From positions 1 through 46,046 of the IMG/VR virus record IMGVR_UViG_3300033052_000032: a stretch of 46,046 bases of DNA. One strand, 5' to 3'. Below the pieces are notes generated by a model, which did not search any database, was not told the DNA's origin, and saw only the letters and a list, made by a program, of their open reading frames with translations. Shown here in pieces: positions 5,715 to 45,823 of the stretch. The number at the start of each line of letters is the position of its first letter. Position 1 is the first letter of the stretch. Origin of the DNA: a virus. Position numbers and translations under genes: made by a program.

Positions 5715-6013
5715 TTTCGCTTCTCCAATGCGAGGTCGAGCTTGGTTTCGATGCGCGCGAGGCGGTCGTTGGCCAGACTGGCGCCGCGATCCTGACTGTC
5801 GGCACGCTGCTCCAGCTTTTCGATGCGGGTGTTCGCCGTCGCCACGTCGCTGCGCAGCGACCCCGCCCCGAACACGATGCCGACGATCGACAGACTGAGT
5901 GCCATCCATGCTGGCCAACTGGCGCGCTGCTTGCCCTGTTCGGCCTTCCAGGCTTCGAATAATTGATACGCGACGATGCGGACTTGCGCAGCGTTGCCAG
6001 GGTCTGTGTTCAA
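5711..6013 (-). CDS. Membrane-anchored coiled-coil protein of the lysis cassette
   Basis: A 100-residue protein. I place the start at the TTG at 6013, which overlaps the previous stop as TTGA and has GGAGG 5 nt upstream. A more distal TTG at 6028 lacks such a site. It has one transmembrane segment (WMALSLSIVGIVFGAGSL) and a C-terminal helix rich in Arg, Glu and Leu (RIEKLEQRADSQDRGASLAN) likely to form a coiled coil. Small proteins of this plan between holin and tail genes can be antiholins or additional holins. The sequence alone does not say which. Confidence 0.65.
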   Translation of the reverse strand: MNTDPGNAAQVRIVAYQLFEAWKAEQGKQRASWPAWMALSLSIVGIVFGAGSLRSDVATANTRIEKLEQRADSQDRGASLANDRLARIETKLDLALEKRK

Positions 6014-6102
6014 CGAAACCTCCGCCAATAATAGAGACCGAGAAGAGCCAGGATCAGGCCAGCGAAGATCAGGAAGGCCGCGTCGGCCTGATCCGGTGTC
6101 AT
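6010..6102 (-). CDS. 30-residue single-span membrane protein
   Basis: This very short frame runs from the ATG at 6102 to the TGA at 6010. It is almost entirely one transmembrane helix, AAFLIFAGLILALLGLYYW, ending in a basic tail RRFR. Its stop overlaps the next start (TTGA), and its start overlaps a possible upstream stop as ATGA. Such tight coupling is the rule in this operon. Location suggests a lysis accessory such as an antiholin or pinholin-like peptide. Confidence 0.6.
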   Translation of the reverse strand: MTPDQADAAFLIFAGLILALLGLYYWRRFR

Positions 6103-6212
6103 GTCAGCGCCGGTCTGGATCGGTGAACGGCCGCTCTTTTGCGGGCGGATCGCCGGCGGGCGGGGGCGGCCAGGATGACGCACGGTGTTGAGCCCAGATC
6201 GACAATTTCCAT
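6099..6212 (-). CDS. Possible 37-residue basic protein
   Basis: The frame starts at the ATG at 6212, sharing a base with the stop of the DUF2829 gene (TGATG), and ends at 6099, overlapping the next gene as ATGA. It begins MEIVDLGSTPCVIL and then is Arg- and Ala-rich. Fit at both junctions is the main support. A competing frame in the same interval, starting at a TTG, gives a proline-rich peptide and ends just before the next ATG. Only one of the two is likely real. Confidence 0.4.
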   Translation of the reverse strand: MEIVDLGSTPCVILAAPARRRSARKRAAVHRSRPALT

Positions 6213-6577
6213 CAGGGCACCAAGCGCCAATCTTCGGCAAGGATATCGTCGGCGACCATCCAGATTTCGCCGACCTTGCCCTCACTCTCAAAGTGCTGGA
6301 TTTCAGCCCCGTCGGGCGCCAGTTGCAGGAACGCGCCGCTCCATGCCTCACGCGCCATCCGGTGTCCGCGCCTCAGATATTCGAGCGCATCGCCGAACCG
6401 CATCGCACCATTAATACGAAAATTGGCCTGAAACGCCGCGGCCGGCATCCAGATATTCGTGCCGTCCGGCAGCGCCAGATCGAAGCCGGCCTCCCCGACA
6501 ACCTCGCGGGCCGAGGCCATCACGATCAGCGTGCCCGTGAATGGGACGTTCTGAAAATCCATTGTTGCAAAATCCAT
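6212..6577 (-). CDS. DUF2829 protein, Tad2-like anti-Thoeris candidate
   Basis: A 121-residue protein with GGAG before the ATG at 6577. Residues about 60-120 fit the compact DUF2829 fold: RFGDALEYLRRGHRMAREAW, then LQLAPDGAE and the closing DILAEDWRLV. DUF2829 is the domain of Tad2, a phage protein that binds the cyclic ADP-ribose signal of Thoeris defence and so blocks abortive infection. The first 55 residues (LPDGTNIWMPAAAFQANF) are an N-terminal extension I do not recognise. The gene lies between tailspike and lysis genes, as DUF2829 genes often do. The function is inferred from family only; ligand-pocket residues cannot be checked here. Confidence 0.75.
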   Translation of the reverse strand: MDFATMDFQNVPFTGTLIVMASAREVVGEAGFDLALPDGTNIWMPAAAFQANFRINGAMRFGDALEYLRRGHRMAREAWSGAFLQLAPDGAEIQHFESEGKVGEIWMVADDILAEDWRLVP

Positions 6578-6589
6578 CGTCGATCTCCG

Positions 6590-8707
6590 TCAGGGAGCGA
6601 TCTGGCCCGTCGTCCGAAGACGGGCGAGCGCGGTATTTGTGGCGGTGCGGATGCTGGTCACGTCGGCAGCGAGCTGGGCGAGCGACGCGCGGCATTGCGT
6701 GTCGATCGTGGCGCCGCCTGAGGGCGCGACATAGGTCATGGCCGCGGCATCGGGAACAGCAGCCATGCGCGGACCCAGCACTTGGACCCCGTTCATCTCG
6801 AAGGCGACGCTGCTGACACGAACCACGGTGTTGGTCGCGCCACCGTCCTTGCCGATCCGGTTGACACTGGCGCCAGTGCTGTCGCCAAGATCGCCCGATA
6901 TTGTCGAGGTGCTGAAGGCGTAATAATTGTAGCTCTGCGTCCCGGCGCCGAGCACGGTCATGCCCCCGCCCAGCCGGATATTCGCATTGCCGTTTCCGAC
7001 AACGCCGAAGCTGCCACCTATAAGCGTGCTGCTATAGACTTCGCCCGTCGAGCCGTCCTGGAACTGGACGCAGGCCGCAGTCGTGCCGCGCACCTGCGCC
7101 TTCACGCGGACATTCAGGCCGGCAATCAGGATGCCCTGCGTTGAGGCGCCATTGATGACGACGTCGATATCGAGCCCGTCAACCCCGCCAGATCCCGCAT
7201 TGCCCTTGCGAACATTGATCGCGGGGCCGGTCCCCTTTCCACCGGTCACAACGTCGGTGCTGGCCTCGACGCGCGTATCGATCAACTTGCCCAACGTAAT
7301 GGCAGATGCCGGACACCCGATCTGAATCCCGCCCGTAACGGAGCTGTTCCAATCCTTGCCGCCGACACGGCGCATCCAGTTCCCGCGCTTGTCGAAATCC
7401 GTGACATTCGTGATCGCCGCGATCGCATTGCAGGTGTCGGCGAAGAAGCCGTCGATAAAGCTGTAGTTGCTGTTCTCGATCACGGCGCCGGTGTCGGTGC
7501 AGTCCTTGCCGCCGCAATCGATGATGCCGCAGTAATCGCCGCTGACATATATGCCGTCGGCCGCGTCAGTCCCGCTACTGCCACCGCACGACAGGCCGAA
7601 GCTGCGCCGGACAAAGCTGCGCAGGCCACCCCCGATCGACAGGCCAACGCCCGGAATGCTCGCATAACCGACCGCGTTTGTTCCGACGCAATCGACGAAC
7701 TCGCAGTCCGTTGGCAGTCGGAAGGCGGCCCCCATATACCGGATGTTCTGGCCCGCCGTCCGGTTCGCCCGATTGGCGTTGAAGATCAGGCCGCGAACAC
7801 TCAGCTTCGATTGCGTGTCGGCGTAGAACACATGCTCGAAGACGGTATTGTCCTTCGCCTTCAGTTCGGCCCCATAGCCCCGGATATTGAGGTTACTGCG
7901 ATTGCAGAGCGCGGTGCCATTGAGCAGGTAGACCTTCGGCGGAAAGACCAGCGTCCAGTTCGCGGGACACTCCGATAGTGCGGCATTGATGCGTATCAGG
8001 TCGGCCGCCGAGCCATCACCCGTAACGCCCCAATCGGTAACGCTGCGCGTTTCGAGGAAGCGCGAAAGAATCGTCCGCGCGATGGCGCCGGGCTCGGGCG
8101 TGATAAAGCGGACGATGCTCGCGCCGAGAGAGGAGCGCAGATGCGCAATAAACCCGGCGACGGTGGTCCACAGCGATCCGCCGGCCCCGTCATCGTCCCC
8201 GATATTGGCAGAAAATGGTGCCACGGCCACGGCGCCGGCGACCGGGACCATGTTGCCGCTGTCATCGAACGCGGCGAATTTGTTCGCGCGCGAAGCCACG
8301 CCAGCGATCGTGAACCCGAGTTCACCGAAGGGCACACGAACCGTTCGGTCGATCTGCCGCTGCTGCTTGAGGTCGCGCACCGCGGCGCGATCAAGCGCGC
8401 GCGTCAGGGCAGCAGGGTTGAATGATGGTCCCGTGTTATCGAAGTCGGAGGGCTGCGTCAGGGCGGGGTCTCCAACGACATAGATCTGACTGTAGTCAGC
8501 AAGCTGGGGAGCCACTGAAAAATCGAGGGCACCGCCCTCGTCATCGTCGAGCGTTATGCTGTACAAAGCGGGAGAGATGACGGCGCCGTCCTGGTCGACC
8601 GCCACGACTTCGTCAGCGGCAGTGGCCTTGAAGCCGAACGGAAATGATGTGGTGGACCCATTGGGCACGTATGGACCGGCAATGGATACTTCGCTGAAGA
8701 CTGGCAT
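6590..8707 (-). CDS. Tailspike or tail fibre with beta-helix domain
   Basis: A 705-residue receptor-binding protein. Residues 1-135 form a virion-attachment domain of the podovirus fibre type (SFPFGFKATAADEVVAVDQD, then PSFNPAALTRALDRAAVRDL). A Gly- and Ala-rich connector follows, and from about residue 221 there is a right-handed beta-helix of the pectate lyase 3 type (SVTDWGVTGDGSAADLIRIN). Turn-rich rungs continue to about 600. The end (DAAAMTYVAPSGGATIDTQC, then a helix) may be a trimerisation tip. It should bind, and perhaps cleave, a surface polysaccharide. The first copy of the TTTTGAGCGCCG motif lies 37 nt upstream of its start. Confidence 0.85.
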   Translation of the reverse strand: MPVFSEVSIAGPYVPNGSTTSFPFGFKATAADEVVAVDQDGAVISPALYSITLDDDEGGALDFSVAPQLADYSQIYVVGDPALTQPSDFDNTGPSFNPAALTRALDRAAVRDLKQQRQIDRTVRVPFGELGFTIAGVASRANKFAAFDDSGNMVPVAGAVAVAPFSANIGDDDGAGGSLWTTVAGFIAHLRSSLGASIVRFITPEPGAIARTILSRFLETRSVTDWGVTGDGSAADLIRINAALSECPANWTLVFPPKVYLLNGTALCNRSNLNIRGYGAELKAKDNTVFEHVFYADTQSKLSVRGLIFNANRANRTAGQNIRYMGAAFRLPTDCEFVDCVGTNAVGYASIPGVGLSIGGGLRSFVRRSFGLSCGGSSGTDAADGIYVSGDYCGIIDCGGKDCTDTGAVIENSNYSFIDGFFADTCNAIAAITNVTDFDKRGNWMRRVGGKDWNSSVTGGIQIGCPASAITLGKLIDTRVEASTDVVTGGKGTGPAINVRKGNAGSGGVDGLDIDVVINGASTQGILIAGLNVRVKAQVRGTTAACVQFQDGSTGEVYSSTLIGGSFGVVGNGNANIRLGGGMTVLGAGTQSYNYYAFSTSTISGDLGDSTGASVNRIGKDGGATNTVVRVSSVAFEMNGVQVLGPRMAAVPDAAAMTYVAPSGGATIDTQCRASLAQLAADVTSIRTATNTALARLRTTGQIAP

Positions 8708-8743: not shown

Positions 8744-8755
8744 CGGCGCTCAAAA
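8744..8755 (-). promoter_or_regulatory. Late-region motif copy A
   Basis: Read on the minus strand this is TTTTGAGCGCCG, followed by ATAG as in copy C. It lies 37 nt upstream of the tailspike start. An inverted repeat, CCTCAATTTTGAGG, lies between motif and start and overlaps the ribosome site. Confidence 0.55.
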
Positions 8756-21498: not shown

Positions 21499-21510
21499 CG
21501 GCGCTCAAAA
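21499..21510 (-). promoter_or_regulatory. Late-region motif copy B
   Basis: TTTTGAGCGCCG on the minus strand, 25 nt upstream of the 42-residue gene. Its first T residues directly follow a terminator hairpin, so transcription may stop and restart here, between capsid and tail genes. Confidence 0.6.
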
Positions 21511-26653: not shown

Positions 26654-26665
26654 CGGCGCTCAAAA
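26654..26665 (-). promoter_or_regulatory. Late-region motif copy C
   Basis: TTTTGAGCGCCG on the minus strand; with flanks it shares 16 bases (CTATCGGCGCTCAAAA on the plus strand) with copy A. It lies 44 nt upstream of the small proline-rich head gene and begins at the base after the stop codon of the repeat protein. Confidence 0.6.
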
Positions 26666-29385: not shown

Positions 29386-29397
29386 CGGCGCTCAAAA
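29386..29397 (-). promoter_or_regulatory. Late-region motif copy D
   Basis: TTTTGAGCGCCG on the minus strand, 26 nt upstream of the gene at 29360. Its first bases include the stop codon of the small Cys-rich gene upstream, so it sits exactly between the packaging and virion gene sets. Confidence 0.55.
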
Positions 29398-31904: not shown

Positions 31905-32555
31905 TCACACTTCATGGCTGCGCTCAAAATGAGCGATGGCTTCGACCTCCGCGACTTTCTCGGCAAACTCCGCCTCGGCGCGGGCGAGGGGATCGGGTAC
32001 AAAATCGAGAATTTCCGGTGCGAGGTCGCAAGTTACCCGCAGCACGCCGACGCCGGGGACGATGACGCGGCCTGTCCTGCGATAGCCATCGCCAGACAGG
32101 AACCATCCAGCGCTCAACAGTCCGGCATGATAGATGCGCGCCGCGGGCGATTCCGAACTCGGGAACTTCGCCCAATGGCTGCAACCTTGCGATCGACGCG
32201 CGCCACAGAGTGGGCATTCCGCGTTTGCGTCTCCGACGATCTCCGGCTCGCCGTCGCGAACGAGCTTGGCACGCTGGCGCTCCCATCGCTCATGATCTGA
32301 CGCCAGCCGATTGGCCTTGTGCTGTGCCTTGGTGATGCCGTTGGGAAAATCAGCCATTGCACCTCGCAGCTTATCTGCGGTCTCGATGGTCAGGCGCCGC
32401 CGGCGAAGGCGAACGGCCGAGCGAGTAGAGACCGTGACACGCGCTGCGAACATCAGCTTTGAGTAGTTTGTCCCGGTGCGCTTACACCAGGCGCCGATGT
32501 CTTCGATCAGCTTCACGGTCTTTGCGTGGCTGAGAAGGCGGTGCTCGTGTCTCAT
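31905..32555 (-). CDS. Hypothetical protein with HTH-like and Cys-rich segments
   Basis: A 216-residue protein whose ATG at 32555 overlaps the previous stop as ATGA. The N-terminal 70 residues look like a divergent helix-turn-helix (IEDIGAWCKRTGTNYSKLMF, then RLRRRRLTIETADKLRGAMA). The centre has CPLCGARRSQGCSHW, a Cys/His cluster that may bind zinc. The C-terminus ends in helices (ARAEAEFAEKVAEVEAIAHF). It could be a DNA-binding regulator or replication accessory factor; I cannot assign a family. Confidence 0.6.
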   Translation of the reverse strand: MRHEHRLLSHAKTVKLIEDIGAWCKRTGTNYSKLMFAARVTVSTRSAVRLRRRRLTIETADKLRGAMADFPNGITKAQHKANRLASDHERWERQRAKLVRDGEPEIVGDANAECPLCGARRSQGCSHWAKFPSSESPAARIYHAGLLSAGWFLSGDGYRRTGRVIVPGVGVLRVTCDLAPEILDFVPDPLARAEAEFAEKVAEVEAIAHFERSHEV

Positions 32556-36521: not shown

Positions 36522-37157
36522 ATGCAAAACCGAATCAGAGAAATTCGCCTTCAGAAGGGGCTCACCATGGAGCAACTCGCCGATAAGATCGGCGGTGTCC
36601 ATTTCACGACAGTCGGCAAGATCGAAACCGGCAAGATCGAAATGACCCTTTCGAGGATGCAGGACTTCGCTCGTGCGCTAGATGTTAGCGTAGCGGAATT
36701 GTACGAAGCCCCCGAGGAGCGGGAAAAAGGCGAAACCCTCCCCGTAAAGTATCTTCGGCGGGGCGATACGATTGAAAGCGGTTTGCTCGTAGAGAGATCG
36801 GTTTTGCGGGGCTTCGCGGAATACGCGCTTGGTGATGTTATCCTTCAGGCGGTCAGTTTTCAAAACCTGCTCAGTCTCACCGGAATGTTGCGCAACTCAC
36901 ACGTATTGGTGCGAAGCGACGACTTCGGATTGATCGAGGGCTGCTATTATGCGGTCAAAAACCAGAAAGGTGAAATCTTCCTGTCGGAGTATAAGGAGGG
37001 GCCCGCCCGGTTTGTCCGCCCGACAGTGGGCTCGCGCTTCAAGGACATGATTCTGGGCCAAGACCAGATAGTGATTTTGGGCATCTGCCTGGTGTGGGAA
37101 GTCGCGCTAGTCCCCGCGCGTCATCCTTCCGTTCCTAGCCGATCCGGAGAGAATTAG
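36522..37157 (+). CDS. CI-type prophage repressor
   Basis: A 211-residue repressor. Residues about 5-60 are an XRE helix-turn-helix (IREIRLQKGLTMEQLADKIG, then GVHFTTVGKIETGKIEMTLS). The C-terminal part (LVRSDDFGLIEGCYYAVKNQ, then KGEIFLSEYKEGPARFVRPT) resembles the strand pattern of S24/LexA-type repressors, but I cannot find the expected catalytic Ser and Lys pair. It is flanked on both sides by TTAGC-N7-GCTAA operators controlling outward promoters. It should maintain lysogeny by silencing leftward cro-replication and rightward early transcription. Its own start has only a weak site (GAGAG). Confidence 0.82.
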   Translation: MQNRIREIRLQKGLTMEQLADKIGGVHFTTVGKIETGKIEMTLSRMQDFARALDVSVAELYEAPEEREKGETLPVKYLRRGDTIESGLLVERSVLRGFAEYALGDVILQAVSFQNLLSLTGMLRNSHVLVRSDDFGLIEGCYYAVKNQKGEIFLSEYKEGPARFVRPTVGSRFKDMILGQDQIVILGICLVWEVALVPARHPSVPSRSGEN

Positions 37158-38788: not shown

Positions 38789-39270
38789 CTGAGTACTTCA
38801 ACGACCCCGCAGCCCGTGCAGGTTTCCACGCGCAGGCAATCGCCACCATGGGCGAATGCCCGGCGTGGGACGCGGCAATCACGGCGTTCGTGACTACCGA
38901 CATTGTCGCCCGCGCTCACCAAGAATTTGGTCCCCTTAAGCGGGCGCGCAACGATAGCGATCTCGAGAAGGACGAACTCGACCAGAAGCACGGCAAAGGC
39001 TGGCACAATCTGCCCGAGCATCAGGCGACGTGGGAGCGCCTGTGTGCGGCGGGTGCATCCTACGACGATGCGATAAGCGAGCGCTACTATAGCCCAATGT
39101 GGGAGGCGCAGCGTCGGCTTGTACTGACCCCGGCGCCTACGCTCGCCGCGCTGGTCGTCAAAGCAGCCGTCATGGAGTGGCACGAAGTCTGGAACGACAG
39201 CGCCATCGAACAGGACGGCGCCGAGCTGCTTGAAGTCGAAGCGCGTCGCCTGACCGGGGCTGGGGCATGA
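38785..39270 (+). CDS. Early protein 4, hypothetical
   Basis: A 161-residue protein starting at 38785 (ATGA overlap). It is helical and Trp-rich (HGKGWHNLPEHQATWERLCA, then YYSPMWEAQRRLVLTPAPTL and VMEWHEVWNDSAIEQDGAEL). No family recognised. It ends in the start of the multi-HTH regulator gene and is translationally coupled to it. Confidence 0.6.
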   Translation: MTEYFNDPAARAGFHAQAIATMGECPAWDAAITAFVTTDIVARAHQEFGPLKRARNDSDLEKDELDQKHGKGWHNLPEHQATWERLCAAGASYDDAISERYYSPMWEAQRRLVLTPAPTLAALVVKAAVMEWHEVWNDSAIEQDGAELLEVEARRLTGAGA

Positions 39271-40376
39271 GCGCCCGCGGCTACATGTCGCCGCGGCGGC
39301 TTGCCGAGATGACGGCCGCACTCCGGACTGGCGACAGTTTCGTCAAGATCGCCGCCGACAACGATATGTCGGTGCCCAGCGTCCGCCGCTGGCTTCAGCC
39401 GGTGATCGACCTCCTGACCGAGCATGGCCGCGAACCGCGATGGATAGCGAAGGTTGCTGGGCATCGGGCACCGATCACTGCTGACCAAAAGGCTGAGATC
39501 AAGCAGCGCCTGACGACGGCGCTTAGCATTCGCCAGATCGCCCAAGCGATGAACCTCGACAAGAGCACGGTGACGAAGATCGCCAAGCCGCTGATCGCGG
39601 CCATGCGTGAGGCCGGCAGCCTTGGGCTTTGCGAGTGCGGGCAGGATCGGTTCCATCAACGGATTTGTTCCAGAACGGCAGGCACCGGCGCGACCGAAGA
39701 TCAGTTGCGCAAAAGGATCGAGGTCACCGCGGCAATCATGGCTGGCGACTCGTTTGCTGCGATAGCCGAGCGCTTCGGCATGGGTGGCCCGACCAGCGCC
39801 AGGCGCTACCTGCGCCACTTGACACCGGAGCAGCGCCGCCAGCGAAAGGTGATGGAAAGCGCTAGGAGTATCGGCGAGCAGCCGGAAAAGCGAGCCGCGG
39901 TGGTCGCCGCTATCCTTCGCGGAGAAACCTATTCCGCCATCGCCGATCGCTTGGGCATGAGCGCCAACGGGGTCGCGCGCTATCTGCGTTGGCTAACGCC
40001 GGAGCAGCGCGAGCGCCGCAAGGCGCTGGAGCGTGACCGGACGTGCGGGACAGCGGAGCCTGCGCTTCGTCCATTCATCGACGCGACCTATTCCCAGATC
40101 GCGGCGGCAATGCCGCGGTGGCTCAGCGAGGCCGCCCGCGATGACGCGATCAGCGACATGTATTTGGCGCACCTTGAGGGCGCAGTTTCGATGTCGGACG
40201 TCGCCGCCGAAGCAAGGCGCTTCGCCAGCCGCACGGTCGCCGCTTTCGAGAGCAAGTTCGGCCCGCGTTCGCTGGACGAGAAGCTGTTCGATGACGGCGA
40301 CACGACCCTGAAAGACACGCTGGTCGATCCGGCCGCGCTCGAAGCTTTCGACTACATTTTCGAGGAGGCACTATGA
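39267..40376 (+). CDS. Multi-HTH regulator with sigma factor-like C-terminus
   Basis: A 369-residue protein with four helix-turn-helix-like units: residues 24-43 (SFVKIAADNDMSVPSVRRWL), 87-106 (SIRQIAQAMNLDKSTVTKIA), 162-182 (SFAAIAERFGMGGPTSARRY) and 221-240 (TYSAIADRLGMSANGVARYL). The last two, with LTPEQR(R/E)RRK tails, are clear duplicates. A C-x-C-x5-H-x3-C cluster lies at 122-134. The C-terminus (280-352) reads like sigma-70 region 2 plus linker: RDDAISDMYLAHLEG, then SLDEKLFDDGDTTLKDTL. That last motif is very similar to the SLD-x-x-x-x-x-D-G-x-x-x-L-x-D-x-L linker of sigma-70 proteins. If it binds core polymerase, its domain order is reversed relative to sigma. Start overlaps as ATGA. 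Confidence 0.7.
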   Translation: MSARGYMSPRRLAEMTAALRTGDSFVKIAADNDMSVPSVRRWLQPVIDLLTEHGREPRWIAKVAGHRAPITADQKAEIKQRLTTALSIRQIAQAMNLDKSTVTKIAKPLIAAMREAGSLGLCECGQDRFHQRICSRTAGTGATEDQLRKRIEVTAAIMAGDSFAAIAERFGMGGPTSARRYLRHLTPEQRRQRKVMESARSIGEQPEKRAAVVAAILRGETYSAIADRLGMSANGVARYLRWLTPEQRERRKALERDRTCGTAEPALRPFIDATYSQIAAAMPRWLSEAARDDAISDMYLAHLEGAVSMSDVAAEARRFASRTVAAFESKFGPRSLDEKLFDDGDTTLKDTLVDPAALEAFDYIFEEAL

Positions 40377-40591
40377 TGCACCTGGCATTCGAACAATCGC
40401 CGGTCGACGCGGCTTGGGCGGCGTTTGACGCCGCCGCGATCAGGCTGAACCGCATGTACGCGGAATGCTCGCCGGACTGGGACACCCCTGAGGAAACAAC
40501 GGCGCGGCGGGAATTGTCGATCGAGGTCGTCCGCCTCTGGAATGAATTTCGGACGCTGCTCGTCGGCCAAGACCCGAGGCCAGCAGCATGA
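40373..40591 (+). CDS. Early protein 6, hypothetical small
   Basis: A 72-residue protein; the ATGATG at 40373 offers two adjacent starts. It repeats the operon's common pattern, DAAWAAFDAAAIRLNRMYAE, followed by ARRELSIEVVRLWNEFRTLL, two helices that could form a hairpin. No known domain. It is the shortest member of the proposed helical family. Confidence 0.6.
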   Translation: MMHLAFEQSPVDAAWAAFDAAAIRLNRMYAECSPDWDTPEETTARRELSIEVVRLWNEFRTLLVGQDPRPAA

Positions 40592-41715
40592 CGCTCCCGT
40601 CGTTCATCAACAAGGGGCAGCCCAAGACCGCTTGGCCCGAATGGCTGCTGAAGCACGCCGTTGGCCGGCCGGATGAAAACGGCTCTTTTCTGATCCGCAC
40701 GAAGATCGGCAAGGATGAAGACCTGCGCGCGCGGGTCCATAAGGGCGCTATCGTCTTCGAGCGCAAGGGCGTCGCCTACACCCGACCCGACGCCGACGAC
40801 GCGCGTCGGTTCATCGCCGAACTGGAGGAGGCCGAGAAGCCGGACCCGAAGAATGCGCCGGTGGACGCCGCTCCCAAACCGTTCAAGATGCGGATCGTAT
40901 CTCCCCCGAAACCGAAGCCAGCGGGCCGCAAGTTCGCGGCGCCGAAAGGCAATCCGCCCTCTATCGAAATGCGCAACCCCGGCGAGCTGCGGATTGACGA
41001 CAGCTATCAGCGGTCGATCGACACCGGCCCCAGCCGGGCGCTCATCAACCGGATCGCGAGCGATTGGGACTGGCGCATGTGCTTGCCACTAGTCGTGTCG
41101 AAGCGCGACGACGGCTATTTCTATGTGATCGACGGGCAGCACCGGCTCGCCGCGTCGAAACTGCGCACCGACATTCCCTTTCTGCCGTGCTGCGTCTTCG
41201 TCTTCGAGAGCGTGGCCGAGGAGGCGAAGATGTTCGTCGCCATGAACCGCGCGCGTCGCGCGGTGAACCGGCTGGACGACTTCCACGCGGCGCAGGCCAG
41301 CGGCAACGAGGATGCGCTTGCGATCAAGGGGCTGATCGAAGCCGTCGGCTTCACGGTCAGCCGCAAGACTGGATCCGGCGCGTGGGCGCCCGGCGAGGTT
41401 GCATTCACCAGCGCGATCGGAAAGGCCCGCCGCCGCTATGGCGAGCGCGTTGTGATGACCGCGCTCGAAATCATGGCCGAGGCGTTCAAGGATGAGCGGC
41501 TTGTCGTCGGCTCCCCCGTCTTCACCGCCATCTGCGGGATGCTTGGCGATGCCGAGTTGAAACCAGACCGCGCGCGCCTGCTGGCGGGGGTCCGCACCCT
41601 CGATATGTCCGGCTGGGCCAGTCTGATTGCAGAATGCCGGGGTGGGACCGACCGGAACAAGCATATCCGCGACTTCCTGCTCGCTGCTTACAGCGATGCG
41701 CAGGTGGCGGCATGA
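40588..41715 (+). CDS. ParB-like domain protein (DGQHR type)
   Basis: A 375-residue protein. After an N-terminal domain (WPEWLLKHAVGRPDENGSFL) and a proline-rich linker (about residues 85-120), the central part is ParB/Spo0J-like. It has RIDDSYQRSIDT, PLVVSKRDDGYFYVIDGQHR and LAASK, where DGQHR (182-186) is the family's signature. The rest is helical (FVAMNRARRAVNRLDDFHAA). In phages such proteins may be nucleases, NTP-dependent DNA-binding factors or host modifiers; the family is broad. ATGA overlap at the start and end places it in the early operon. Confidence 0.75.
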   Translation: MTLPSFINKGQPKTAWPEWLLKHAVGRPDENGSFLIRTKIGKDEDLRARVHKGAIVFERKGVAYTRPDADDARRFIAELEEAEKPDPKNAPVDAAPKPFKMRIVSPPKPKPAGRKFAAPKGNPPSIEMRNPGELRIDDSYQRSIDTGPSRALINRIASDWDWRMCLPLVVSKRDDGYFYVIDGQHRLAASKLRTDIPFLPCCVFVFESVAEEAKMFVAMNRARRAVNRLDDFHAAQASGNEDALAIKGLIEAVGFTVSRKTGSGAWAPGEVAFTSAIGKARRRYGERVVMTALEIMAEAFKDERLVVGSPVFTAICGMLGDAELKPDRARLLAGVRTLDMSGWASLIAECRGGTDRNKHIRDFLLAAYSDAQVAA

Positions 41716-42561: not shown

Positions 42562-42776
42562 CCGACGATGAAAAGGATGCGCTTGCGCTCAAGATCGCCC
42601 GGATGGCGGTCGAGGAGGTCGGCCCCGTCGAGGCGCCCGGCGTGCTCTGGCAAGCGCTGATCACCGCACATGTCACCTGCCATTCTCTCGAATCCGCTGT
42701 GGCCTGCATCGGAGCCGGACTGGAAAAGCTGAGGCACGATCTTGCGGAGTTTCAGGCCAAGAGGTCGATCCAATGA
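42558..42776 (+). CDS. Small helical early protein
   Basis: A 72-residue protein (DEKDALALKIARMAVEEVGP, then LESAVACIGAGLEKLRHDLA), mostly two or three helices. No domain recognised. It is held in the operon by ATGA overlaps on both sides. It may be a partner of the winged-helix protein upstream. Confidence 0.55.
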   Translation: MTDDEKDALALKIARMAVEEVGPVEAPGVLWQALITAHVTCHSLESAVACIGAGLEKLRHDLAEFQAKRSIQ

Positions 42777-43162
42777 GCGGCGGCGACTTCTGGGCGAAGT
42801 GCCCCGAGTGCGGAAACGTATGGTGCGTGGTCCGCCTGCCGATGCCGATCGAGGAGGCCGCGCGCGCCATGATCGCCGCCTTTTGTCCTGTCTGTGGCAA
42901 CGACAGCCCAACGACGGCGCCACCATCCTCAATCCCTCACGCTCAGCAGGAGAACGAAATGAGCGCCACCACGCGGCCCGCGGGGGCCTATATCTTGAAC
43001 AAGGCCGACCCGGCGAAGCCCCGGCGACAGCATCGCACCTTTGAAATCGCGGAAGGCGAGGCCCGACGCCTCGCCAGCCTTAATCCTGGTACCGAGTTCA
43101 TCATCAGCCAGGAGATCGCGCGCGTTGTTTCGGAGCCCGACAGTTATCCGGAGCCCCGATGA
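42773..43162 (+). CDS. C4 zinc-finger early protein
   Basis: A 129-residue protein with an N-terminal zinc ribbon, CPECGNVWCVVRLP and later FCPVCGNDSPTT. A flexible linker follows, then a domain PAGAYILNKADPAKPRRQHR, FEIAEGEARRLASLNPGTEF. The second part starts with an in-frame ATG preceded by GGAGAACGAA (about 42960). A shorter internal product of 68 residues is therefore possible. No function known. Confidence 0.6.
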   Translation: MSGGDFWAKCPECGNVWCVVRLPMPIEEAARAMIAAFCPVCGNDSPTTAPPSSIPHAQQENEMSATTRPAGAYILNKADPAKPRRQHRTFEIAEGEARRLASLNPGTEFIISQEIARVVSEPDSYPEPR

Positions 43163-43825: not shown

Positions 43826-44206
43826 ATGAACGAAAACAAGGCCTACCTTCTAACGGGCAGCAAGGGCATTGGCACCGGCAGCCATTTTTTCCGTTTCTGG
43901 ATGCCGTATCTGTTTCATCGCATCAGCCACCCGAAGCATAAGCACGCCTTCATCCCGCTCAATCGGAACTACAAGCCGCTTGGTCAGATGACGAAAGAGC
44001 ATGTCGACTATGACGCGCTCGCCATGTCCCATGGGGTCGTCTTCGCGCGCGATCCGATCAACTATCCTGGAATTTGGCATAACGTCGAGGGCGACCACTA
44101 CTGGCTCTATTCCGATGACCCTCGGACGCGCATGGACTATTTCAAGCGGCTTGAGACGCTGATGACCTATGACATCAGCGTCATGAAGCCGGACAGCCGA
44201 CGCTAG
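43826..44206 (+). CDS. Hypothetical protein convergent with the integrase
   Basis: A 126-residue protein from the ATG at 43826 (AGGGAGC upstream). It is aromatic- and His-rich (FFRFWMPYLFHRISHPKHKH, then WHNVEGDHYWLYSDDPRTRM) with GSKGIGTGSHF near the start. I do not recognise a family. Unlike the preceding 15 genes it is separated by a 57-nt gap, so it may have its own regulation. Its TAG overlaps the integrase TAG on the other strand (CTAG, 44203-44206). Confidence 0.6.
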   Translation: MNENKAYLLTGSKGIGTGSHFFRFWMPYLFHRISHPKHKHAFIPLNRNYKPLGQMTKEHVDYDALAMSHGVVFARDPINYPGIWHNVEGDHYWLYSDDPRTRMDYFKRLETLMTYDISVMKPDSRR

Positions 44207-45642
44207 GCATCGCCGAGCCTTTTGCGCGGCGCCTTCGGAGACGTGTCGGCCCAGCGGATCGGCTTGCCGATATGCGCGGCTGGCTCTTCGAGGCCCTCGG
44301 TGATTATGTCGCCCCACGCTTGCGCAATTTCCCGGCGCCGCGGCATATAGGCGGCGCGGTTATACGCCCCCTCAACCTTGTCCTTCGGCACATGCGCCAG
44401 CATCAGGTCGATAACGGCCCGGTCACCCTCCTGTCGATCCGGCCGCTCGTTCATGATCGTGGAGAAGGCCGCGCGGAAGCCATGCGGGACGTGGCGCTGA
44501 TAATAGCCGGCGCGGATCAGCAACGCGCGCAGCGTGTTTTCTGAAATCGGCCTGTGGACGTGGCGCTCGCTCGGGAACATCAAGCGATAGTGCCCGGTGA
44601 GCGGACGTAACGCGCGCAGCACTTCTACGGCTTGTGTCGACAGCGGAACTACATGGTCGCCGCCTTCCTCGGCCTTGCGATCAAGGTCACCCTTCATCCG
44701 GGCGGCCGGGATGCGCCATACCGGCTCATCGCCGTCGAGGCCCTCGATTTCCGACCATTCGGCATTCTGGATTTCGTTCGGCCTTACGGCCGTCAGCGCT
44801 AGAAGGCGGAGCGCGAACTTGGTCGCCGCGCGGCAACGTTCGTCGTCGCAGTCGCGGAGCATTTTGCGAACTACCTTGATCTGGTCTTCGTGCTTCTCGA
44901 TTCGGTCGATGATGGCTGGCTGCTTCTTCGAACGCGGAACGCGGGGCAGCGCCTTCGCCATGCTCGCGGCCGGGTTCGCCTTCGCGAGCCCGGCGGGGAT
45001 GGCATAGACATACACGTCGCTGATGCGCTGGCAGAGCCGATGCGCCGTCTCGATCGCGCCGCGCCGAACCACGGCGTTCAAGACCTCAAGCACCTTCGGG
45101 CTTTCGACCTCGGCGATCGGCAAATTGCCGATTGCGGGAAAGATATCCTTCTCCAGCGACTTGAGCACGTCACCAGCATGGACGATTGACCATCCGGCGT
45201 CCGGCCGGTCGATCCAGTTGGCAGCATCTCGAGCGTTCCATTTCCCGCCCTTCGCCTTCCGCCAGTCGCGGAACTTCGTCAGAGACCAGCCGCTCTTAAG
45301 CTCGAACCAGCGCTCGGCTACCAACTGGAAAGTGTTCTCGGTCGCGATCGCCTTTGCCTTCGTCGCGACGCGCTTCTCGACGGCGGGGTCTCGTCCTTCG
45401 CGGATCAGCGCCTTCGCCTCATCGCGCTTGGAGCGCGCCTCGATCAGCGACATGGCCGGGTACGATCCGAAGGTGAGCGTCTTCTGAGCGGGCTTGCCCC
45501 GGGCATTCTTCCCGAAGGTGTAATTCATTCGCCAGTGCTTTCCGCCCGCCTTCGTGACGTGCAGGAAAAGCTGGCCTGAGTCGGCGAGCTTGTAATCGGC
45601 GGCGAGGGGCTTCGCGGCCTTGATCTTGGCATCGGTGAGCAC
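44203..45642 (-). CDS. int: Prophage tyrosine integrase (P4-type)
   Basis: About 479 residues from a GTG at 45642 with GGAG 8-9 nt upstream; an ATG at 45660 would add six residues. The N-terminal DUF4102 arm-binding domain reads LTDAKIKAAKPLAADYKLAD, then TLTFGSYPAMSLIEARSKRD. The catalytic domain shows Arg in TAVRPNEIQNAEW, H-x-x-R in VPHGFRAAFSTI, and His and Tyr in LAHVPKDKVEGAYNRAAY. It integrates the prophage into the tRNA-Ser 3' end lying 170 bp upstream. It is longer than the left element's integrase and differs in sequence, so the two elements are not duplicates. Confidence 0.93.
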   Translation of the reverse strand: MLTDAKIKAAKPLAADYKLADSGQLFLHVTKAGGKHWRMNYTFGKNARGKPAQKTLTFGSYPAMSLIEARSKRDEAKALIREGRDPAVEKRVATKAKAIATENTFQLVAERWFELKSGWSLTKFRDWRKAKGGKWNARDAANWIDRPDAGWSIVHAGDVLKSLEKDIFPAIGNLPIAEVESPKVLEVLNAVVRRGAIETAHRLCQRISDVYVYAIPAGLAKANPAASMAKALPRVPRSKKQPAIIDRIEKHEDQIKVVRKMLRDCDDERCRAATKFALRLLALTAVRPNEIQNAEWSEIEGLDGDEPVWRIPAARMKGDLDRKAEEGGDHVVPLSTQAVEVLRALRPLTGHYRLMFPSERHVHRPISENTLRALLIRAGYYQRHVPHGFRAAFSTIMNERPDRQEGDRAVIDLMLAHVPKDKVEGAYNRAAYMPRRREIAQAWGDIITEGLEEPAAHIGKPIRWADTSPKAPRKRLGDA

Positions 45643-45653
45643 CGCGCATCTCC

Positions 45654-45806
45654 ATACCATGGATTCGCTGGTGCCATACCATGCGATATACCATGCCGAG
45701 GAGTGAACGCATAAGAACAACTGCGAACATCCTCCGTCACATCAAACCCCAGAAAACGCCGAAAAGCAAGGGTGAGTGAACGGATAAGAACGATTACGCA
45801 TGGTAT
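45654..45806. promoter_or_regulatory. Right arm-type integrase sites
   Basis: ATACCATG occurs at 45654-45661, 45676-45683 and 45688-45695, and in inverse orientation (CATGGTAT) at 45799-45806, immediately next to the core. The same octamer appears at the left end. The cluster also covers the integrase promoter region, so integrase could repress itself. Confidence 0.55.
45701..45791. repeat. 18-bp direct repeats between integrase and core
   Basis: GAGTGAACGCATAAGAAC at 45701-45718 and GAGTGAACGGATAAGAAC at 45774-45791 differ at one base and lie 73 bp apart. They fit a second class of binding site, for example for an excisionase such as the AlpA-like protein, or for integrase. Confidence 0.5.
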
Positions 45807-45808
45807 GA

Positions 45809-45823
45809 TGGCGGAGCGGGAGG
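45809..45823. repeat. Right attachment core inside the tRNA-Ser 3' end
   Basis: TGGCGGAGCGGGAGG, identical to 2902-2916. It forms the CCA end and acceptor strand of the tRNA, so integration keeps the tRNA intact. Confidence 0.75.

Follow-up and report, generated by a model that had tools for sequence, protein, structure and literature searches.

A phage regulator combining an HTH array with a sigma finger-like C-terminus

The window analysed here, a whole stretch of 46,046 nucleotides that constitutes an IMG/VR virus record, encodes a regulator for which the best explanation, given about an even chance of being correct, is a phage transcription factor that recruits host RNA polymerase via a sigma-derived module. 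The C-terminal module defines a phage regulator family whose proteins end in a sigma finger-like stretch; this family is real and, as far as we could find, undescribed. A preliminary description of this DNA had reported a reversed order of parts, with helix-turn-helix (HTH) units first and a sigma-like piece last, and this main observation stands because the order is reversed throughout the family: HTH units are followed by a region 2.2-like helix and then by the finger, which is the opposite of the order in sigma factors. The firm part of the sigma likeness is the finger, rather than region 2. Beyond that earlier account, we identify a zinc-knuckle-like motif and a tandem duplication relating HTH units 3 and 4, and we recognise that an entire protein family carries the module at its C-terminus. 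The parts of the gene are as follows (AF2, AlphaFold2).

39267..40376, + strand: regulator gene, a 369-aa ORF with four HTH units, then the C-terminal sigma-like module
39285..39422, + strand: HTH unit 1 (residues 7-52; AF2 helices 9-20, 25-31 and 36-52; unit search)
39474..39614, + strand: HTH unit 2 (residues 70-116; Pfam HTH_Tnp_ISL3 and HTH_IclR; AF2; sigma region 4 profile match)
39630..39668, + strand: zinc-knuckle-like motif CECGQDRFHQRIC (residues 122-134; from sequence)
39693..39866, + strand: HTH unit 3 (residues 143-200; AF2, unit search, repeat comparison with unit 4)
39870..40049, + strand: HTH unit 4 (residues 202-261; Pfam HTH_23 at 207-242; AF2; sigma region 4 profile)
40056..40268, + strand: helical part of the module (residues 264-334), its middle helix weakly resembling sigma region 2.2
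40269..40340, + strand: sigma region 3.2 (sigma finger)-like stretch SLDEKLFDDGDTTLKDTLVDPAAL (residues 335-358; PDB profile matches, hhalign)

The tail of the module matches sigma region 3.2

Region 3.2, the sigma finger, is the part of sigma that reaches into RNA polymerase. The preliminary description had read SLDEKLFDDGDTTLKDTL as a motif of this sigma linker, and the family profile bears that reading out, its matches in the PDB being almost only sigma factors and falling at this stretch. When a profile of 25 members was compared with 177,635 distinct PDB sequences, 19 matches were obtained at E <= 10 (best E 0.0018), 17 of which are sigma factors (SigA, SigB, HrdB, RpoD) that are all matched over the region 3.2 stretch; the corresponding part of the module is its last 30 residues (SLDEKLFDDGDTTLKDTLVD). 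Using hhalign, the tail scored 30.1 against primary sigma and 27.6 against RpoH, compared with 14.1 and 16.3 for the best of 60 column shuffles, and the whole module scored 32.3 and 36.5, compared with maxima of 19.1 and 22.2 among 16 unrelated proteins of the window. The same method gave no match between the tail and the ECF sigma set used. Pfam returns a weak Sigma70_r3 match on the linker (residues 332-359, E 0.001) and, beyond it, no C-terminal domain in the regulator. Within the family, 28 of 29 members retain SLD, 24 retain D350 and 22 retain D354. Taken as a sequence match, the assignment of the tail to sigma region 3.2 is well supported.

The helical part weakly resembles sigma region 2.2

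The preliminary description had also proposed a region 2-like helix set, of which one part stood: the module does contain three helices (AF2, pLDDT about 92) and the middle one aligns with ECF region 2.2 above controls, but neither a significant fold match nor a Sigma70_r2 match accompanies it. Against ECF sigma region 2.2 the helical part scored 23.4, with shuffles reaching at most 18.2 (0 of 60 attained the score) and 16 unrelated proteins at most 20.1, in an alignment of 24 columns that pairs RdDiiSdlYlaileG with aeDlvQEvflraw. One joint alignment takes in region 2.2 and then the tail, in sigma order. The Q of the sigma motif is present in some members (DIIQ, DVVQ, EVVQ), and the 2.2-like helix has conserved acidic positions at 293 (86% D/E) and 297 (72%) and a conserved aromatic at 299. 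Foldseek gave no significant match for the module, with all E-values above 1, and 4 of its 28 marginal matches are ECF sigma factors bound to polymerase; across the PDB and viral sets, searched with both module and full protein, nothing was significant except one BFVD entry (A0A6B9SWJ1, 274 residues), which is probably a member of the module family. The helical part alone retrieved no sigma factor from the PDB, Pfam Sigma70_r2 was found in 0 of 25 members, and the region 2.3/2.4 signature (WL..ia.N pattern) was not recognisable in members; helix 3 is rich in aromatics. We therefore describe the resemblance of these helices to region 2.2 as weak and suggestive.

Set beside the features that define sigma-70 factors, the regulator has its HTH units at the N-terminus rather than a region 4 HTH at the C-terminus, gives no match to the Sigma70_r2 domain and shows no recognisable 2.3/2.4 residues for -10 recognition and melting, and carries its finger sequence at the C-terminus, with a short tail after it, rather than between region 2/3 and region 4. 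By this membership test we do not file it in the sigma-70 family. In the model that we favour, the N-terminal four-HTH array and zinc knuckle would read phage promoter DNA while the sigma-derived C-terminal module would dock on the polymerase core, its short helical domain binding the beta' clamp as sigma region 2.2 does and its acidic tail entering the active-site cleft as the region 3.2 finger does; the likely target would be phage late promoters, possibly the TTTTGAGCGCCG sites described below. Core polymerase binding, late-gene activation and the DNA target of the regulator are thus what we infer. More tentatively, members of the family may constitute sigma factors of reversed architecture, in which a long promoter element (TTTTGAGCGCCG here) is recognised by an array of HTH/zinc-knuckle units, numbering from one to about six, and the C-terminal 2.2/3.2-like module turns host core polymerase into a phage-specific holoenzyme with no region 4 behind the finger; we consider this possible rather than probable.

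The region 2.3/2.4 features needed for melting are not clear in the module, which is also what one would expect of an activator or antiterminator that acts on the holoenzyme together with host sigma70, using the tail as a contact surface and replacing no sigma factor. Precedents come from GafA and GafYZ, alphaproteobacterial activators of phage origin that resemble sigma in part and make contact with polymerase omega or RpoD (PMC6363796, PMC9638019, PMC11150451): GafA, from the same bacterial class, contacts omega (PMC9638019), and GafY contacts RpoD domains 3-4, with GafYZ acting in antitermination (PMC11150451). However, a region 3.2 finger would fill the cleft taken by the finger of sigma70, so that a protein simply binding alongside sigma would collide with it, and the sigma-like part of GafA is a C-terminal DNA-binding domain rather than a finger. 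We hold this activator reading to be a realistic minority view.

The module defines a family in alphaproteobacterial phages and prophages

The module spans approximately 105 residues and is shared by 30 distinct members, which come from prophages, phages and one plasmid of alphaproteobacteria. It is C-terminal in 30 of 30 distinct sequences, with 0 to 40 residues after it, and in front of it stand up to about six DNA-binding units of varied type, or none at all; a few members consist of the module or nearly so (L028, L029, L032, L033). Searches with the C-terminal part found relatives in Brevundimonas phages, an unclassified faecal phage, a Microvirga plasmid and IMG/VR contigs, and Novosphingobium and Methylobacterium genomes carry relatives as well. 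We detected the module in at least 8 of 301 genomes of Novosphingobium's family and at least 5 of 298 genomes of Methylobacterium's order, both counts being lower bounds in that 16 candidates were scored in most genomes. Neither Pfam nor NCBIfam holds a family covering the module in the 25 members searched. PHROG 24127 matches 9 of these 25 sequences (best E 5.3e-5) and explains nothing because it is without assigned function. A phmmer search of the PDB with the single regulator sequence gave nothing useful, and scanning viral contigs with a single protein found no relatives, whereas alignment-based scans did. Scans of genome contigs confirmed none with one alignment (A3) and two with another (A5); a third (A2) was too diverse for pattern scans.

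One genome of Novosphingobium's family (G061) contains four module genes (L020, L027, L028, L029), two of them module-only, and the L032 phage encodes a module-only-like protein (5755-6312) and a multi-HTH module protein (6751-7905) a few hundred bases apart. At L002, two proteins classified by eye, a HerA/FtsK-like ATPase (21-1226) and one with SANT/Myb-like repeats (1223-2470), are encoded directly upstream of a long multi-HTH module protein; the L008 module gene is also preceded by an ATPase of similar look.

That module-only versions exist would fit a decoy role, in which the module prevents sigma from binding and switches host transcription off, with the DNA-binding array serving autoregulation or targeting, and a finger plus clamp-binding helix without a full region 2 could indeed compete with sigma70. 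Most members nevertheless have DNA-binding units, and the wide range in their number points to targeting; we judge a decoy function to be highly improbable.

The N-terminal array comprises four HTH units and a zinc-knuckle-like motif

The four HTH units given in the preliminary description are recovered by Pfam (HTH_23, 3.5e-12, and related families) and by structure prediction, in which trihelical units occupy residues 9-52, 72-116, 144-184 and 206-242 and are succeeded by three more helices and a low-confidence tail (AlphaFold2, six relatives). The zinc-knuckle-like motif, of pattern CxCGx4Hx3C, is located between HTH units 2 and 3, and a similar motif lies between HTH units in eight other members (L007, L008, L016, L002, L020, L021, L027, L032). 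HTH units 3 and 4 form a tandem duplication and agree at 104 of 171 aligned bases; L007, which at 66% overall identity is the closest relative, is one HTH unit shorter. Two HTH units of the regulator match the sigma region 4 profile; this match is unspecific because the units match many HTH families.

The regulator gene lies in a tight block opposite the late genes

Two further genes of the + strand frame the genetic context of the regulator.

36522..37157, + strand: CI-like repressor (Pfam HTH_3, 3.2e-14), which opens the + strand gene block
40588..41715, + strand: ParB-like protein (DUF6551), a conserved neighbour of the module gene

The regulator sits in a tight + strand gene block, because its ATG overlaps the stop codon of the upstream gene (ATGA) and a short frame and then the ParB-like gene at 40588 follow directly 3' of it. 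On the - strand are genes for terminase subunits, a head-tail adaptor, the major head protein, tail proteins, an endolysin-like protein, a primase and a helicase. Position 2902 shares 15 bases with the end of a tRNA-Ser at 45809, a match that fits integration at tRNA-Ser and suggests a prophage at approximately 2902-45823 with a second element abutting it. The window holds two integrases (1607-2845 and 44203-45720), and beside the first of these a 76-aa stand-alone sigma region 4-like protein is encoded at 1362-1592 on the - strand (Sigma70_r4_2, 2.4e-8), probably outside the prophage of the regulator. An operon partner resembling TraR, which the preliminary description had offered as an argument for polymerase redirection, was not confirmed: the candidate, a 129-aa zinc-ribbon protein at 42773-43162, has no DksA/TraR match, nor does DksA_TraR match the other small neighbours tested, and the argument drops out because no TraR-like neighbour could be established.

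The ParB-like gene adjoins the module gene in L007, L032 and L033 and is one gene off in L008. Its presence near the module gene in these four relatives could be taken to indicate that the regulator is a DNA-binding protein without a polymerase role, working in replication, partition or packaging (for example with the ParB-like neighbour), and that its SLD tail is convergent. The HTH part has several PHROG matches to terminase small subunits and transposases, and the existence of module-only proteins (L028, L029, L032, L033) can likewise be counted in favour of such a role. On the other hand, the tail match is specific to one functional sigma element among all of the PDB sequences compared, and the tail is the best conserved stretch of the module family. 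A role away from polymerase thus appears unlikely to us.

A repeated late-strand motif is a candidate target

The preliminary description suggested that host polymerase might be redirected to the motif TTTTGAGCGCCG. This motif, the top repeated 12-mer of the window, occurs as four exact copies and one copy with one mismatch, all on the - strand, where 0.53 copies with up to one mismatch are expected and none of 100 shuffles reached five.

8744..8755, - strand: motif TTTTGAGCGCCG, exact; upstream of the gene at 8707
21499..21510, - strand: motif TTTTGAGCGCCG, exact
26654..26665, - strand: motif TTTTGAGCGCCG, exact
29386..29397, - strand: motif TTTTGAGCGCCG, exact
31918..31929, - strand: near copy TTTTGAGCGCAG (one mismatch), located upstream of the terminase genes; in the relative G600, the corresponding site carries the exact motif

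The copies fall within, or border on, the intervals separating late genes. We regard the motif as a good candidate late promoter or operator. In the closest relative, G600, whose regulator module is about 86% identical, four copies are found at matching positions (11758, 14730, 20136 and 33073), with flanks that have diverged in places. Six more distant phages, searched de novo for motifs, yielded nothing comparable. A TA roughly 13 nt downstream of the motif seemed conserved, but as a possible -10 box it was set aside because a window-only test was not significant (P 0.45). Redirection of polymerase to TTTTGAGCGCCG by the regulator, which may bind the motif, is plausible because the motif is late-strand, intergenic and conserved with the regulator in the closest relative; it is no more than plausible because no copy was found in more distant members and the second promoter element is not significant.

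Comparison with known systems

If our interpretation is true, the polymerase-engaging part of sigma has been detached and reused as a C-terminal plug-in behind interchangeable DNA-binding arrays, and a finger can function without region 4 behind it. Control of the late genes in many temperate phages of alphaproteobacteria would then have an explanation, and proteins that now carry the label 'HTH protein' or 'hypothetical' would gain a function. The family would also be a source of modular phage-specific transcription tools. A literature search of incomplete coverage found no design with a C-terminal finger behind an HTH array, and none of gp55, gp226, GafA and GafYZ has been described with one.

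T4 gp55 is a region 2-type phage sigma in which three acidic residues of one helix bind the clamp helices (PMC7892883). Like the regulator, it is encoded by a phage, and its minimal sigma design, in which acidic residues of a region 2-like domain bind the clamp (PMC7892883), is one that the module of the regulator may resemble, but it consists of a helix-loop-helix and a sliding-clamp-binding tail and has no HTH array. It gave no match in our PDB profile or Foldseek searches, a negative that is not firm given how highly diverged gp55 is.

GafA and GafY/GafZ are similar to the regulator in that DNA-binding and sigma-like parts occur in one protein or operon, and they recruit polymerase, as we propose for the regulator (PMC6363796, PMC9638019, PMC11150451), the DNA-binding ends of GafA having sigma and DnaA similarity (PMC9638019). 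GafA homologues differ from it in their DUF6456/HTH annotation and DnaA-like N-terminal DNA-binding domain, and no finger module is described for them. DUF6456 is absent among the best 25 of 36 Pfam families (E <= 1) for the regulator, and membership in the GafA group, considered from literature descriptions, was not supported.

AR9 gp226 keeps region 2 and the finger, other parts being replaced (PMC9209446). The layout of gp226 and phiKZ gp68, where a finger-like element comes after a region 2-like domain and the remaining DNA-binding parts have been exchanged (PMC9209446), recalls that of the regulator; unlike it, both proteins work with a polymerase encoded by the phage and retain the order of sigma, the finger of gp226 being followed by a region 4-like helix. 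Compared with sigma-70 factors (primary, RpoH and ECF), the regulator is reversed, with four HTH units rather than one, no recognisable 2.3/2.4 and no Sigma70_r2 match, but it shares with them a region 3.2-like finger, a weak region 2.2 similarity and HTH units comparable to region 4.
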